The notes below the pieces were generated by a model. That model was given only the letters and a program-made list of their open reading frames with translations. It was not told where the DNA came from and made no database searches. A stretch of DNA of 64,000 nucleotides from the NCBI RefSeq assembly GCF_002804065.1, contig NZ_CP024955.1:434001-498000 (forward strand), given 5' to 3'. Shown one piece after another: positions 14,824-34,485 of this stretch. The position numbers were made by a program, and so were the translations under genes. Numbering within the stretch: position 1 is the first letter of the stretch; each line of letters opens with the position of its first letter. Origin of the DNA: Kyrpidia spormannii (GTDB lineage Bacteria; Bacillota; Bacilli; Kyrpidiales; Kyrpidiaceae).

Positions 14824-16715
14824 GTGTGCCCGGCATGGGCGTTGACTTGGTGGTGAAAGTCCACTGCAGGCGAGGCAGCACGAGTCTGCTAGCCAAAGGC
14901 AAGGGTGTCCGCTGCGAGGCGGAATCCGAAGGAAGCCGGAGGCAAACCCACGGCCCGATGAACAAGAACCTCATACGAGGCTGCGCCGTTCGGATGAGCT
15001 GGCGCAACACAGCGAAATCCAAGGCTGCCAAGGAGCGGTGGAGTATATGAGGCGGGCGCGGGGGGAAGGTCAGCGTTCTTACCCGGGGAGGCCTGCCGGA
15101 CACGCCAGAGAAACTGGCAACCCGAACCGAGAGGTTCGGCTGAACCGGCAGGAGTCAGCAGAGGGCATAGTACTCCGGGGATCATGAACCTGAGAGGAAG
15201 GCCCGAACATCAAGTCAGAGGTGAGACCGGTGCGTTCGCGAGAAGGACGAAGACAGCCGAAAACCCTGAACAGGAACTGCCCACGGGAGGAAGTGGTGAA
15301 GCCACGGGGGATCGTGGGAGAGCCGAGCCCTTCTCCGGCACAAAGCGGAACCTCACCTCGCGGGGATCAAGGTGACAGCCTGATGGAGAAGGTGGTGGCC
15401 AGGGATAACATGCTGGCCGCCCTGAAGCGGGTGGAGCAGAACAAGGGCAGTGCCCCCGGCGTGGACGGCATTCCCACGGAAAACCTCCGGGAACAGATCC
15501 GAGCCGAGTGGCCGCGCATCCGGGAAGAACTGCTCGCGGGGACCTACCGACCGCAGCCCGTGCGCCGGGTCGAAATCCCGAAACCCGGGGGAGGCAAGCG
15601 GATGCTGGGGATCCCCACCGTGATGGACCGCCTGATCCAACAGGCCCTCCTGCAAGTGCTGACGCCGATCTTTGATCCGCAATTTTCGGAGGCCAGCTAC
15701 GGTTTCCGCCCCGGAAGAAGGGCCCACGACGCGGTCAAGAAGGCGAGGCAGTATGTGGAAGAAGGATACGAATGGGGCGTGGACATGGACCTGGAAAAGT
15801 TCTTTGACCGGGTGAATCATGACATCCTTATGGCCCGGGTAGCCCGGAAGGTCACGGACAAACGAGTGCTCAAGGTTATTCGCCGGTACCTCCAGGCAGG
15901 GATCATGGTGAACGGGGTGGTCATGGAAAGGGAGGAAGGGACGCCCCAGGGTGGGCCGCCCCGTCCACTGTTGGCGAATATCCTTCTGGATGACCTGGAT
16001 AAAGAACTGGAAAAGAGGGGCCACAAATTCGTCCGGTATGCAGATGATGCCAACATCTACGTTCGAAGCAGACGGGCGGGGGAGAGAGTCTTGGCCAGTG
16101 TCCGGAAATTCCTGCAGGAGAGGTTAAAACTCAAGCTCAACGAGCAGAAGAGCACGGTGGACCGACCGTGGAAACTCAAGTTTCTGGGGTTCAGCATGCA
16201 TAAACCCAAAGCCGGGGAAATCCGAATCCGCCTAGCGAGGCAGTCGATCGACCGGGTCAAGACCAAGATCCGAGCCCTCACGGCGAGGAACACACCGATC
16301 GCCATGGAGGAACGAATCCGACGGCTGAACACGTATCTGGGTGGATGGATCGGGTATTTTGCCCTGGCGGAAACGCCGAGCATCTTCGAAGAAATCGATG
16401 GATGGATACGGCGGAGGCTGCGGATGTGTCTCTGGAAACAGTGGAAACGGGTGCGGACGCGATACCGTGAACTGCGTGCACTGGGGTTGCCGGAGTGGGT
16501 GGTGCACCCATTTGCCAATGCCCGCAAAGGGCCGTGGCGAATGGCCCATGGGCCGATGAACAGAGCCCTGGGCAACGCCTACTGGCAGGCTCAAGGTCTG
16601 ATGAGTTTAACCGAACGTTACCGAAGGCTTCGTCAAGCTTGGTGAACCGCCGGATGCGGATCCGCATGTCCGGTGGTGTGAGAGGACGGGGGCTAGCCGC
16701 CCCCTCCTACTCGAT
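14824..16715 (+). mobile_element. Group II intron, probably group IIC, copy 1
   Basis: The 1892-base element runs from the GTGTG 5' end to a 3' end reading CTACTCGAT (AY-type). It contains a reverse transcriptase/maturase gene in its loop. Near the 3' end the fold ACCGCCGGATGC paired with GCATGTCCGGTGGT looks like domain V (16645-16680), and the GGGGGC/GCCCCC hairpin with a near-terminal A looks like domain VI. It sits directly after an intrinsic terminator and breaks no gene. It abuts copy 2 with no base between. The class is inferred from the target, the lack of an endonuclease domain and resemblance to Bacillus IIC introns. Confidence 0.85.
15383..16645 (+). CDS. ltrA: Group II intron reverse transcriptase/maturase, copy 1
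   Basis: The 420-residue protein has the RT blocks in order: NKGSAPGVDGI, YGFRPGRRAHDAVKKA, LEKFFDRVNHDILM, GTPQGGPPRPLLAN, the catalytic FVRYADDANIYV, and KLKFLGFSM. A maturase (X) domain follows (GWIGYFALAETPSIFEEIDG). No HNH endonuclease domain is present, as in class C introns. The ATG at 15383 follows AAGGTGA; an open frame extends to 15221, but that part is intron RNA domain. Two oddities: one extra residue (Ser) in NKG-S-APGVDG compared with copy 2, and PQGGPPRPLL where PQGGxxSPLL is usual. Confidence 0.92.
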   Translation: MEKVVARDNMLAALKRVEQNKGSAPGVDGIPTENLREQIRAEWPRIREELLAGTYRPQPVRRVEIPKPGGGKRMLGIPTVMDRLIQQALLQVLTPIFDPQFSEASYGFRPGRRAHDAVKKARQYVEEGYEWGVDMDLEKFFDRVNHDILMARVARKVTDKRVLKVIRRYLQAGIMVNGVVMEREEGTPQGGPPRPLLANILLDDLDKELEKRGHKFVRYADDANIYVRSRRAGERVLASVRKFLQERLKLKLNEQKSTVDRPWKLKFLGFSMHKPKAGEIRIRLARQSIDRVKTKIRALTARNTPIAMEERIRRLNTYLGGWIGYFALAETPSIFEEIDGWIRRRLRMCLWKQWKRVRTRYRELRALGLPEWVVHPFANARKGPWRMAHGPMNRALGNAYWQAQGLMSLTERYRRLRQAW

Positions 16716-18604
16716 GTGTGCCCGGCATGGGCGTTGACTTGGTGGTGAAAGTCCACTGCAGGCGAGGCAGCACGAGTCTGCTAGCCAAAGGCAAGGGTGT
16801 CCGCTGCGAGGCGGAATCCGAAGGAAGCCGGAGGCAAACCCACGGCCCGATGAACAAGAACCTCATACGAGGCTGCGCCGTTCGGATGAGCTGGCGCAAC
16901 ACAGCGAAATCCAAGGCTGCCAAGGAGCGGTGGAGTATATGAGGCGGGCGCGGGGGGAAGGTCAGCGTTCTTACCCGGGGAGGCCTGCCGGACACGCCAG
17001 AGAAACTGGCAACCCGAACCGAGAGGTTCGGCTGAACCGGCAGGAGTCAGCAGAGGGCATAGTACTCCGGGGATCATGAACCTGAGAGGAAGGCCCGAAC
17101 ATCAAGTCAGAGGTGAGACCGGTGCGTTCGCGAGAAGGACGAAGACAGCCGAAAACCCTGAACAGGGACTGCCCACGGGAGGAAGTGGTGAAGCCACGGG
17201 GGATCGTGGGAGAGCCGAGCCCTTCTCCGGCACAAAGCGGAACCTCACCTCGCGGGGATCAAGGTGACAGCCTGATGGAGAAGGTGGTGGCCAGGGATAA
17301 CATGCTGGCCGCCCTGAAGCGGGTGGAGCAGAACAAGGGTGCCCCCGGCGTGGACGGCATTCCCACGGAAAACCTCCGGGAACAGATCCGAGCCGAGTGG
17401 CCGCGCATCCGGGAAGAACTGCTCGCGGGGACCTACCGACCGCAGCCCGTGCGCCGGGTCGAAATCCCGAAACCCGGGGGAGGCAAGCGGATGCTGGGGA
17501 TCCCCACCGTGATGGACCGCCTGATCCAACAGGCCCTCCTGCAAGTGCTGACGCCGATCTTTGATCCGCAATTTTCGGAGGCCAGCTACGGTTTCCGCCC
17601 CGGAAGAAGGGCCCACGACGCGGTCAAGAAAGCGAGGCAGTATGTGGAAGAAGGATACGAATGGGGCGTGGACATGGACCTGGAAAAGTTCTTTGACCGG
17701 GTGAATCATGACATCCTTATGGCCCGGGTAGCCCGGAAGGTCACGGACAAACGAGTGCTCAAGGTTATTCGCCGGTACCTCCAGGCAGGGATCATGGTGA
17801 ACGGGGTGGTCATGGAAAGGGAGGAAGGGACGCCCCAGGGTGGGCCGCCCCGTCCACTGTTGGCGAATATCCTTCTGGATGACCTGGATAAAGAACTGGA
17901 AAAGAGGGGCCACAAGTTCGTCCGGTATGCAGATGATGCCAACATCTACGTTCGAAGCAGACGGGCGGGGGAGAGAGTCTTGGCCAGTGTCCGGAAATTC
18001 CTGCAGGAGAGGTTAAAACTCAAGCTCAACGAGCAGAAGAGCACGGTGGACCGACCGTGGAAACTCAAGTTTCTGGGGTTCAGCATGCATAAACCCAAAG
18101 CCGGGGAAATCCGAATCCGCCTAGCGAGGCAGTCGATCGACCGGGTCAAGACCAAGATCCGAGCCCTCACGGCGAGGAACACACCGATCGCCATGGAGGA
18201 ACGAATCCGACGGCTGAACACGTATCTGGGTGGATGGATCGGGTATTTTGCCCTGGCGGAAACGCCGAGCATCTTCGAAGAAATCGATGGATGGATACGG
18301 CGGAGGCTGCGGATGTGTCTCTGGAAACAGTGGAAACGGGTGCGGACGCGATACCGTGAACTGCGTGCACTGGGGTTGCCGGAGTGGGTGGTGCACCCAT
18401 TTGCCAATGCCCGCAAAGGGCCGTGGCGAATGGCCCATGGGCCGATGAACAGAGCCCTGGGCAACGCCTACTGGCAGGCTCAAGGTCTGATGAGTTTAAC
18501 CGAACGTTACCGAAGGCTTCGTCAAGCTTGGTGAACCGCCGGATGCGGATCCGCATGTCCGGTGGTGTGAGAGGACGGGGGCTAGCCGCCCCCTCCTACT
18601 CGAT
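16716..18604 (+). mobile_element. Group II intron, probably group IIC, copy 2 (tandem)
   Basis: This 1889-base element is nearly identical to copy 1. I find three base substitutions (at 17167, in the codon run near 17631, and near 17914) plus a three-base difference near 17340. Its 5' neighbour is the last base of copy 1 and its 3' flank is GCACCTG. Both copies share the same ends (GTGTG to CTCGAT), so each is complete and the pair is a precise head-to-tail tandem. Confidence 0.85.
17275..18534 (+). CDS. ltrA: Group II intron reverse transcriptase/maturase, copy 2
   Basis: The 419-residue protein matches copy 1 over its whole length, with the same YADD active site and the same PQGGPPRPLL variant. 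It has the shorter NKGAPGVDG form of the first RT block, the usual spelling in this family, so the extra codon in copy 1 is probably the derived state. Both copies appear intact, with no frameshift or stop. Confidence 0.92.
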   Translation: MEKVVARDNMLAALKRVEQNKGAPGVDGIPTENLREQIRAEWPRIREELLAGTYRPQPVRRVEIPKPGGGKRMLGIPTVMDRLIQQALLQVLTPIFDPQFSEASYGFRPGRRAHDAVKKARQYVEEGYEWGVDMDLEKFFDRVNHDILMARVARKVTDKRVLKVIRRYLQAGIMVNGVVMEREEGTPQGGPPRPLLANILLDDLDKELEKRGHKFVRYADDANIYVRSRRAGERVLASVRKFLQERLKLKLNEQKSTVDRPWKLKFLGFSMHKPKAGEIRIRLARQSIDRVKTKIRALTARNTPIAMEERIRRLNTYLGGWIGYFALAETPSIFEEIDGWIRRRLRMCLWKQWKRVRTRYRELRALGLPEWVVHPFANARKGPWRMAHGPMNRALGNAYWQAQGLMSLTERYRRLRQAW

Positions 18605-31553: not shown

Positions 31554-32344
31554 TGGATTTTGCATCGGTATTCGGTATGATCGCCGGTATCGGCGCATTG
31601 GTGACCGCCTTTGTGCTCGAAGGGGGAGACATCTATGCACTCTTTCAGGGCACGGCGGCCCTCATTGTTTTTGGCGGCACTTTCGCCGCGACGGTGGTGG
31701 GCTTGTCCCGGGACCAGATCCGGGCCATCCCGGCTTTATTGAAAGTGGCCTTTTTTGGAAAGACGAAAGACCCGCACCGGTTGATCCGCGATCTGGTGGA
31801 GTTGGCCGGCACCGCCCGCAAAGAAGGGCTGCTGGCTCTGGAAGAACGAATTGAGGAGTTCGAGGATCCTTTTATGAAACAAGGCATTCAATTGATCGTC
31901 GACGGGGTTGATCCGGAGTTGGTGCGCACCATGCTCGAGACCGATGTTCAGTTTCTGGAAAATCGCCACCGCCAAGGGGTAGCGATTTTCGAGTCCGCCG
32001 GCGGATACGCGCCGACCATGGGCATCCTCGGCACGGTGATGGGATTGGTCCACGTTCTCAGCAATTTGAGCGATGTACAGTCCCTCGGACCCCTTATCGC
32101 CACCGCTTTTATTGCTACCTTGTACGGCGTGGCATCGGCCAACTTGATCTATTTTCCCATCGCAACCAAACTGAAACTGCGCAGTGAAGAAGAAATCATG
32201 ATCCGGGAGTTGATTATCGAAGGGGTGCTCTCGATTCAGGCCGGAGAGAATCCGACTTTGCTCGGCCAGAAATTGAAGGCTTTCTTACCGCCGAAATGGC
32301 GCGAAGTCGAGGAGAGGAAGGGCGACAGTCGTGAGGCGGCGTAG
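31553..32344 (+). CDS. motA: Flagellar motor stator protein MotA
   Basis: The 263-residue protein has four membrane helices: two near the N-terminus (FGMIAGIGALVTAFVLEGG, GTAALIVFGGTFAATVVGL) and two after residue 140 (YAPTMGILGTVMGLVHVL, GPLIATAFIATLYGVASANL). The charged cytoplasmic loop between them would contact FliG. It forms the proton or sodium channel stator with MotB. The ATG at 31553 follows GGGGTGAAGGG and overlaps the PDZ gene's stop; motB overlaps its end by 14 bases. Flagellar genes proper are not in the window. Confidence 0.93.
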   Translation: MDFASVFGMIAGIGALVTAFVLEGGDIYALFQGTAALIVFGGTFAATVVGLSRDQIRAIPALLKVAFFGKTKDPHRLIRDLVELAGTARKEGLLALEERIEEFEDPFMKQGIQLIVDGVDPELVRTMLETDVQFLENRHRQGVAIFESAGGYAPTMGILGTVMGLVHVLSNLSDVQSLGPLIATAFIATLYGVASANLIYFPIATKLKLRSEEEIMIRELIIEGVLSIQAGENPTLLGQKLKAFLPPKWREVEERKGDSREAA

Positions 32345-33131
32345 GCGGCCTGAGGCTGAAAAGATCAACCAGGAACGCTGGTTGATCACATACTCCGATT
32401 TGATCACCTTGTTGATGATTTTTTTCGTGATCATGTACACCATGTCGAAGGTAGACATGTATAAATTCGTCAATCTTTCCGCCTCGTTGTCCCAAGCGCT
32501 GTATAACCAGAACCAGGTGCAGCTCAAGGGGCTTGGCACCACCGGACTCATCGCGGCCCAACCGTCGGCGGGTCCGCCCGGGCAGGTCCCTCCAGCGCCA
32601 GATTTTCTAAAAACGCCGGAGCAGGTGGCGGAAGAGCGCCAGTTGGCCCAGATCAAGCTCCAGCTGCAGTCGTTCATTCAGAAACAGGGCGTCGCCGGCC
32701 AAGTGGTGGTGGAGGACAAACCCAAAGGGCTGCTCATTAGTCTGAGAGACGTCATCCTGTTCGATACGGGAAAGGCGGATCTCAAGCCCGAGGCCCGCAA
32801 GTTGTTGGACGGCCTTCTCCCGTTTCTCGCCCAGGTGGGCAATCCTCTGGAGATCGAGGGGCATACGGACAATCGTCCGATCCATACCGCCCAGTTTCCG
32901 TCGAACTGGGAGTTGTCCACGGCCCGGGCGCTGACGGTGCTAGAGTACCTGCAGGCCAAGGGCATTGATCCGAAGCGCCTGTCCGCCACGGGGTACGGAG
33001 AGTGGAGACCGGTGGCTTCAAACGACAATCCCGAGGGGCAGGCGTTGAACCGACGGGTGAACATCACCATTGAACGCACGAGCGCAATCAACGGACCTGC
33101 TGATCAGGCGCCTAATCTGTCCGGCCCTTGA
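32331..33131 (+). CDS. motB: Flagellar motor stator protein MotB
   Basis: The 266-residue protein has a basic cytoplasmic start, then one helix carrying the ion-binding Asp (WLITYSDLITLLMIFFVIMY). A Pro-rich plug/linker region and an OmpA-like peptidoglycan-binding domain follow (about 140-250, ILFDTGKADLKPEARKLLDG and EIEGHTDNRPIHTAQFPSNW). It anchors the stator to the wall. The start is GTG at 32331 inside the end of motA. Proton versus sodium coupling cannot be settled by eye. Confidence 0.93.
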   Translation: MRRRRRPEAEKINQERWLITYSDLITLLMIFFVIMYTMSKVDMYKFVNLSASLSQALYNQNQVQLKGLGTTGLIAAQPSAGPPGQVPPAPDFLKTPEQVAEERQLAQIKLQLQSFIQKQGVAGQVVVEDKPKGLLISLRDVILFDTGKADLKPEARKLLDGLLPFLAQVGNPLEIEGHTDNRPIHTAQFPSNWELSTARALTVLEYLQAKGIDPKRLSATGYGEWRPVASNDNPEGQALNRRVNITIERTSAINGPADQAPNLSGP

Positions 33132-33242
33132 GATGGGAATTGGCCGATTGTATCGGGCTGCGGAAATCACGGCTCGACGGCGGATGGCTGGTGGACTGGG
33201 ATAAACTAGTAAAAAGCCTGCCGCGGATCGGAGGGAGTTGGA

Positions 33243-34166
33243 ATCGAGCTATATTTTTTAGGAACGGGGGCCGGTGCGCCGAGCAAAGAGAGGAATGTGT
33301 CGGCGGTGGGGCTGAGGCAGCCCCGGACCGGACGGTGGTGGCTATTCGATTGCGGCGAGGGGACCCAGCATCGAATGGCGGAGTCGCCCTTTAAATGGAA
33401 TCGCCTGGAGGCGGTTTTTATCACCCATCTGCACGGCGACCATGTGTTTGGTTTGCCCGGCCTCCTGGCAAGCCGCTCCCTTCTGGGACTGACCTCCCCC
33501 CTGGCGATTTTCGGACCTTCCGGGCTTCGGGGATATTTGGAGAGTGTCTTCCAGTTTACCGATACCCACCTCGGGTTTGCACTGGAGGTGGAAGAGATCG
33601 GTGACGGCTGGGCTCGAACCTTTGCATGCGGCTGGACGGTCAGGTGCGGGAAGTTGTGCCATTCGGTGGAATCGCTCGGGTTCCGGGTGGAGGAACCCCC
33701 GCAGCCCGGGCGCTTTCACCCGGATAAAGCCTTGGCGTTGGGAGTGGAACCGGGGCCTGCCTATGCCCGGCTCAAACGGGGCGAGACGGTGGTGCTTCCG
33801 GGCGGGCGCATTGTGGCGGGCCGGGATGTCACCGATCCGCCCCGCCCTGGTCGACGGGTGGTCCTGCTGGGCGACACCGAGCCGTGTACAGGGGCTCTGA
33901 CTTTGGCCGAGGGAGCGGATCTGCTCGTGCACGAGGCGACATTTCTTAGCCGGGATGAGCCCCTCGCCCGCAGGAGCCGACATTCCACCGCGGCGGAGGC
34001 GGCCGATCTAGCCCGGCGAGCCAAGGCGGGGAAGTTGGTGATCACCCACCTGAGCCCCCGTTACGCTGGCCGGGAACTGGAACTCCTGGCAGAAGCCCGG
34101 GCAGTGTTCCCGGCCACAGAGATGGCAATCGACGGGAGCTCGTTCCGTTGTGATCCGCATCCCTAG
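33243..34166 (+). CDS. rnz: Ribonuclease Z, apparent ATC start codon
   Basis: The 307-residue metallo-beta-lactamase nuclease trims tRNA 3' ends. The zinc motif ITHLHGDHVFGLPGLL gives HLHGDH at 62-67. The last ligands are in GDTEPC, VHEATF and HSTAAEA; ITHLSPRYAG follows. The frame before the first usable GTG (33297) still encodes the family's first strand and loop IELYFLGTGAGAPSKERNVS, so that GTG would truncate the fold. The codon where Met is expected is ATC at 33243. GGAGGGAG (33230-33237) lies five bases upstream, right for initiation there. It is either a rare AUC start or an ATG changed by mutation or base-call error. Confidence 0.85.
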   Translation: MELYFLGTGAGAPSKERNVSAVGLRQPRTGRWWLFDCGEGTQHRMAESPFKWNRLEAVFITHLHGDHVFGLPGLLASRSLLGLTSPLAIFGPSGLRGYLESVFQFTDTHLGFALEVEEIGDGWARTFACGWTVRCGKLCHSVESLGFRVEEPPQPGRFHPDKALALGVEPGPAYARLKRGETVVLPGGRIVAGRDVTDPPRPGRRVVLLGDTEPCTGALTLAEGADLLVHEATFLSRDEPLARRSRHSTAAEAADLARRAKAGKLVITHLSPRYAGRELELLAEARAVFPATEMAIDGSSFRCDPHP

Positions 34167-34227: not shown

Positions 34228-34485
34228 TTAATCTTCTAACCGATTGGCGTTCTCGCCGATCTCGTCCAGCTCGTCCATAGCTTCCTCCATATGGGCCCGG
34301 ATACTTTCCATGCGGCGCCGGTTTTTGTTGACGATGTTTCGGCGCTCTTCCTCACTCAGGGAATCCCCCCGCTCCGCTAAATAATCTTCAGCTTCCAGCA
34401 GGTTTTCTTTGGTTTCCCTGGCAATTTCCATGTTACGCGCGCTGTTGTCCGCGCGGTTGTCCGGTTTTGGGTCCTGCCGCTCCAT
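34228..34485 (-). CDS. tlp: Small acid-soluble spore protein Tlp
   Basis: The 85-residue, highly charged helical protein has the Tlp pattern [20 protein letters not shown] then [15 protein letters not shown], and ends in a helix rich in Glu and Arg. Tlp is made in the developing spore, so this is direct evidence for endospore formation. The ATG follows AGGAGGCGG. Just upstream, GCATT, 18 bases and GATCTTA loosely resemble a sigma-G promoter, but I would not rely on it. It runs opposite to its neighbours and has its own terminator. Confidence 0.8.

Follow-up and report, generated by a model that had tools for sequence, protein, structure and literature searches.

The locus described here raises the question of where translation of RNase Z begins in the thermophilic bacterium Kyrpidia spormannii EA-1. 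The window, i.e., the whole stretch of DNA analysed, comprises 64,000 nucleotides of a genome of 3,352,175 bases assembled as a single contig. In it the RNase Z ORF is flanked upstream by motB (32331-33131) and downstream by a small ORF on the minus strand (34228-34485), and ends with a TAG stop codon at 34164-34166. An earlier sequence-only reading had proposed that this gene starts, weakly, at an ATC codon.

The RNase Z frame and its start region

The features of the locus are listed in Table 1. The protein translated from ATC scored 331 bits against TIGR02651, above the curated cut-off of 292.95 for membership in the family, and the solved RNase Z structures 2cbn and 1y44 aligned with it from residue 2 on. 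The metal-binding HxHxDH motif is present as HLHGDH, and the LGTG..P...RN N-terminus as FLGTGAGAPSKERN. Residues L6, G7, T8, P13 and R17 were invariant in 99 distinct homologues; F5, G11 and N18 were each found in 95-97 of the 99.

Table 1. Positions of the features at the RNase Z locus, numbered from the first base of the window.
Feature	Position	Strand	Basis
motB (MotB_plug + OmpA), upstream neighbour	32331..33131	+	Pfam PF13677 and PF00691; ORF with GTG start and TGA stop
Tandem in-frame stops TAG TAA, closing the RNase Z frame upstream, ten codons ahead of ATC	33207..33212	+	Sequence
Shine-Dalgarno GGAGGGAG	33230..33237	+	GGAGG core at 33230-33234, 8-nt spacer to ATC
Out-of-frame TTG behind the Shine-Dalgarno site	33238..33240	+	Sequence; absent from Bu79
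ATC (AUC, near-cognate), inferred start codon	33243..33245	+	Sole in-frame candidate; ATC at the homologous Bu79 codon
RNase Z coding sequence, 307 codons + TAG	33243..34166	+	TIGR02651; homologues 2cbn and 1y44
Conserved N-terminal strand and loop ELYFLGTGAGAPSKERN	33246..33296	+	Invariant residues in 99 homologues; selection test
GTG, first canonical in-frame start, rejected as main start	33297..33299	+	Homologous Bu79 codon is ACC

From the tandem stops the frame reads TAG (33207), TAA (33210), AAA, GCC, TGC, CGC, GGA, TCG, GAG, GGA, GTT, GGA and ATC (33243), and from this codon up to GTG 33297 it reads ATC, GAG, CTA, TAT, TTT, TTA, GGA, ACG, GGG, GCC, GGT, GCG, CCG, AGC, AAA, GAG, AGG and AAT. 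The conserved first strand and loop (IELYFLGTGAGAPSKERN, 33243-33296) are therefore encoded upstream of GTG 33297, as the sequence-only reading had claimed. Its coordinates were also right: the ATC occupies the exact Met position of the homologues, five bases after the end of GGAGGGAG, and the first in-frame ATG, GTG or TTG beyond the ribosome site is GTG 33297, past the conserved block. With near-cognate codons (AUN/CUG) counted along with the canonical ones, ATC 33243 was still the only candidate in frame from the stops at 33207-33212 to that GTG.

In a crude scan of the 54 long ORFs of the window, RNase Z alone combined a strong Shine-Dalgarno site with a near-cognate codon preceding all canonical starts by more than one codon. 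No RNA hairpin above chance was detected at the RNase Z start (z 1.05 and -0.43), and no repeats, promoter-like or terminator-like sites were found near it. Elsewhere in the window two ORFs of near-equal length (15194-16645 and 17086-18534) share the same start-codon pattern, which suggests a tandem gene duplication.

Start codons of relatives and selection on the frame

The codon homologous to ATC was tabulated across the loci of relatives. It was ATG at 75, GTG at 23 and TTG at 4 loci, and CTG, CTC, TTA and ATT at one each, some organisms being counted twice in this tally. At each of the four loci with CTG, CTC, TTA or ATT a canonical start precedes this codon by one to nine codons, and all non-Kyrpidia loci examined carry ATG, GTG or TTG either at the homologous codon or within 10 codons upstream of it. 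ATC was found only in Kyrpidia, namely in EA-1 and in the MAG Bu79, where three retrieved loci represent one gene. These two available genomes thus keep the near-cognate codon between diverged species.

Bu79 is the only close relative keeping the gene, and its codon is ATC rather than ATG. Its RNase Z shares 65% protein identity with that of EA-1, and the gene adjoins motB in both. In Bu79 a GGAGG lies 7 nt before ATC, there is no upstream in-frame canonical codon, and no canonical start occurs in any frame between the Shine-Dalgarno site and the conserved block. Further into the gene, Bu79 has its first canonical codons at positions 12 (GTG) and 22 (ATG), and EA-1 at codon 19 (GTG), so that no internal start is common to both.

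An error of sequencing or assembly at 33243-33245 would dispose of the ATC; its probability is next to negligible. No point was found in its favour. The EA-1 assembly was made from PacBio reads corrected with Illumina data, at QV60 (PMC5773743), and the identical codon was read independently in Bu79, which together make such an error unlikely. The Bu79 MAG does contain apparent indel errors elsewhere, including small indels in a tRNA gene; a simple indel would not convert ATG into ATC with the frame kept. In this tRNA gene, that of the Bu79 initiator tRNA, the MAG has GCAACAGG where EA-1 has GCAACCAAGG, with two more 1-nt gaps close by, and the apparent loss of CCA is probably due to assembly indels and does not denote a CCA-less tRNA.

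The RNase Z frames of EA-1 and Bu79 are intact, with the HLHGDH motif kept, although 163 of 303 third positions (54%) differ. The sharing of ATC in spite of this divergence indicates that the codon is old, and its fixation probably predates the divergence of the two. The excess of dS (1.28) over dN (0.283) shows that the frame is constrained; the dN/dS of 0.22 is rough in absolute terms, as are the other ratios given here, because dS is saturated. For motB in the same pair of genomes dN was 0.082 and dN/dS 0.07, so that RNase Z diverges faster than its neighbour, and when RNase Z was compared within other genera, most pairs of similar dS had a ratio of 0.03-0.09. The fast evolution relative to motB is consistent with a constraint that is relaxed but not absent.

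Selection was also examined within the N-terminal segment. Codons 2-18 of EA-1 and Bu79 differ by 16 nucleotides but by only 3 amino acids. When the 16 differences were placed at random (20,000 trials) the mean number of amino-acid changes was 9.8, and three or fewer were obtained with P about 5e-5. The DNA ahead of GTG 33297 is selected as protein, which requires translation from further upstream; of the computed arguments in favour of the ATC start, this one is the strongest.

The same result bears on a start at GTG 33297, by which the protein would lack its first 18 residues. This is the first canonical codon, GAGAGG stands shortly upstream of it, and the shortened protein still scored 300 bits against TIGR02651. 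It would, however, be deprived of the eight conserved residues from F5 to N18 named above, five of them invariant, Bu79 has ACC in place of the GTG, and the interval from ATC to GTG evolves like coding sequence. Use of this GTG as the start is accordingly considered very unlikely. Still less probable is a -1 frameshift, in which ribosomes would initiate at the out-of-frame TTG 33238 and enter the RNase Z frame by slippage at T TTT TAG (33255-33261). The TTG lies close behind the Shine-Dalgarno site, and a slip site with a stop codon in the A site is a known slippery form, but both the TTG and the T-run are absent from Bu79 (CTGCTGTTTCTGGG).

Taken with the Shine-Dalgarno spacing, the conservation in Bu79 and the selection upstream of GTG support the proposed weak start, and translation of Kyrpidia RNase Z from AUC 33243 is regarded, on the strength of these sequence comparisons, as quite probable.

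Requirement for RNase Z in Kyrpidia

The sequence-only reading took RNase Z to be an essential tRNA-processing enzyme. This finds no support in Kyrpidia. The EA-1 genome has 58 annotated tRNA genes (PMC5773743), and CCA is encoded in 58 of 58, leaving among them no CCA-less gene that would require RNase Z; in K. tusciae the count was 59 of 59. Six members of the same class were tested, none of which had an RNase Z scoring above the TIGR02651 cut-off, and in two of these (G004 and G053) CCA is encoded in 59/59 and 63/63 tRNA genes. CCA was also present in all 48 tRNA genes examined in G043, a genome with RNase Z, so the encoding of CCA permits the loss of the enzyme and does not force it.

K. 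tusciae (genome of 3,384,766 bases) has a motB 97% identical to that of EA-1 and only a remnant of the RNase Z gene. About 452 bases of the EA-1 sequence are missing, from just past the motB stop into RNase Z codon 114, and the 3' end of the gene is gone too, so that two deletions have left codons 115-227 alone. Short microhomologies, GAG and TCTGC, were found at the deletion junctions. The remnant, on the reverse strand of the K. tusciae sequence, is an open frame of 113 codons with about 90% protein identity and has motB on one side and the small downstream gene on the other. An additional RNase Z elsewhere in this genome was considered and rejected, as only generic metallo-beta-lactamase matches were obtained and none reached the RNase Z cut-off.

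The encoding of CCA and the loss in K. tusciae indicate that RNase Z is probably dispensable in Kyrpidia, EA-1 included, which makes a weak start far less paradoxical. The gene is likely to be weakly started, weakly constrained and dispensable. The raised dN relative to motB and the K. tusciae loss would also be compatible with a gene in the course of being lost, and it may be asked whether ATG mutated to ATC only once RNase Z had become dispensable, in a decaying gene that yields little or no protein from a frame still unbroken. The K. tusciae deletion, the CCA encoded by all tRNA genes and the dN/dS above that of motB and of most other same-genus pairs speak for such decay. It is nevertheless unlikely: the ATC is old, common to Bu79 despite the divergence of third positions, and the 307-codon frame has since remained open with its catalytic motifs kept and codons 2-18 under purifying selection, unlike a dead gene.

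Proposed initiation at AUC and known near-cognate starts

AUC is a very rare start codon, and codons of this type are poor starts disfavoured by IF3. In the proposed mechanism, the GGAGG site would place the 30S subunit at AUC 33243, where the ordinary CAU initiator tRNA would pair with the A and U and mispair at C, the third codon position. RNase Z would then begin with fMet and be synthesised at a low rate. Such a start may have been tolerated, or favoured, because RNase Z would not be needed for tRNA maturation in a genus of which EA-1 encodes CCA in every tRNA gene, and the gene would later have been deleted in K. tusciae. The most likely reading is thus Shine-Dalgarno-directed initiation at AUC of low yield, presumably tolerated since little RNase Z is needed. 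A special initiator tRNA with anticodon GAU was looked for and rejected; all tRNAs with initiator-type imperfect acceptor pairing have the anticodon CAU.

Few natural AUC starts have, to our knowledge, been documented as persisting across diverged species. Common gene finders accept only ATG, GTG and TTG, so genes with AUC starts are annotated short or missed. The Kyrpidia case is clean: the sequence is reliable, the codon recurs in another species, and no other start is available. It also connects a probable weak start with a gene that has probably become dispensable and that a sister species has already deleted.

Near-cognate starts are known from other Bacillota. In reporters AUC, AUU, AUA and CUG gave about 5-20% of the activity of AUG in two clostridia, compared with 0.1-0.3% in E. 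coli (PMC9680021); the clostridial values make the use of AUC in a Bacillota plausible. The near-cognate starts of infC, ccpN and cvfC1 are conserved and lower expression in S. aureus (PMC13009471), and the predicted AUC start of Kyrpidia rnz joins this class.

Like infC, which encodes IF3 and starts with AUU or AUA (AUA in S. aureus; PMC13009471), Kyrpidia rnz has a probable AUN start behind a strong Shine-Dalgarno site, and low initiation and sensitivity to IF3 are expected; the codon itself is AUC. Not being an initiation factor, RNase Z is not expected to feed back on its own start in the way that IF3 autoregulates infC. The infC genes of Kyrpidia were inspected as well. In EA-1, K. tusciae and Bu79 they read GGAGGTGA.AG ATG AT[T/C] AG., with an ATG one codon ahead of the AUU/AUA used as start in relatives, and two relatives, with ATA and ATT, respectively, are without the preceding ATG. 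Kyrpidia infC may have changed over to this AUG as its start; the autoregulation of IF3 could thereby be lost. There is a small chance that the AUC is a selected regulatory device, keeping RNase Z low, or responsive to IF3 and growth conditions, in a genus whose infC has seemingly acquired an AUG ahead of its ancestral AUU/AUA start; control of initiation would then have passed from IF3 to genes other than its own.

The starts of ccpN (AUA) and cvfC1 (AUU) in Staphylococcus and Bacillus are conserved and give about 10-30% of the expression obtained with AUG (PMC13009471). Kyrpidia rnz would share with them a conserved near-cognate start in Bacillota. They have extended Shine-Dalgarno pairing and proof from reporters, whereas the rnz start is predicted from sequence and, in EA-1 as in Bu79, pairs through the GGAGG core only, short of the extended pairing typical of S. 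aureus near-cognate sites. Kyrpidia rnz, in contrast to these genes, looks dispensable. Here it resembles E. coli, in which RNase BN/Z is nonessential and all tRNA genes encode CCA (PMC2777011); with CCA likewise encoded in all tRNA genes of EA-1 and K. tusciae, RNase Z can be expected to be nonessential there as well. The gene belongs to the same TIGR02651 family as B. subtilis rnz and E. coli elaC (RNase Z, RNase BN; homologues 1y44 and 2cbn), and differs from them in its probable AUC start, in place of ATG, GTG or TTG, and in its loss from a sister species.
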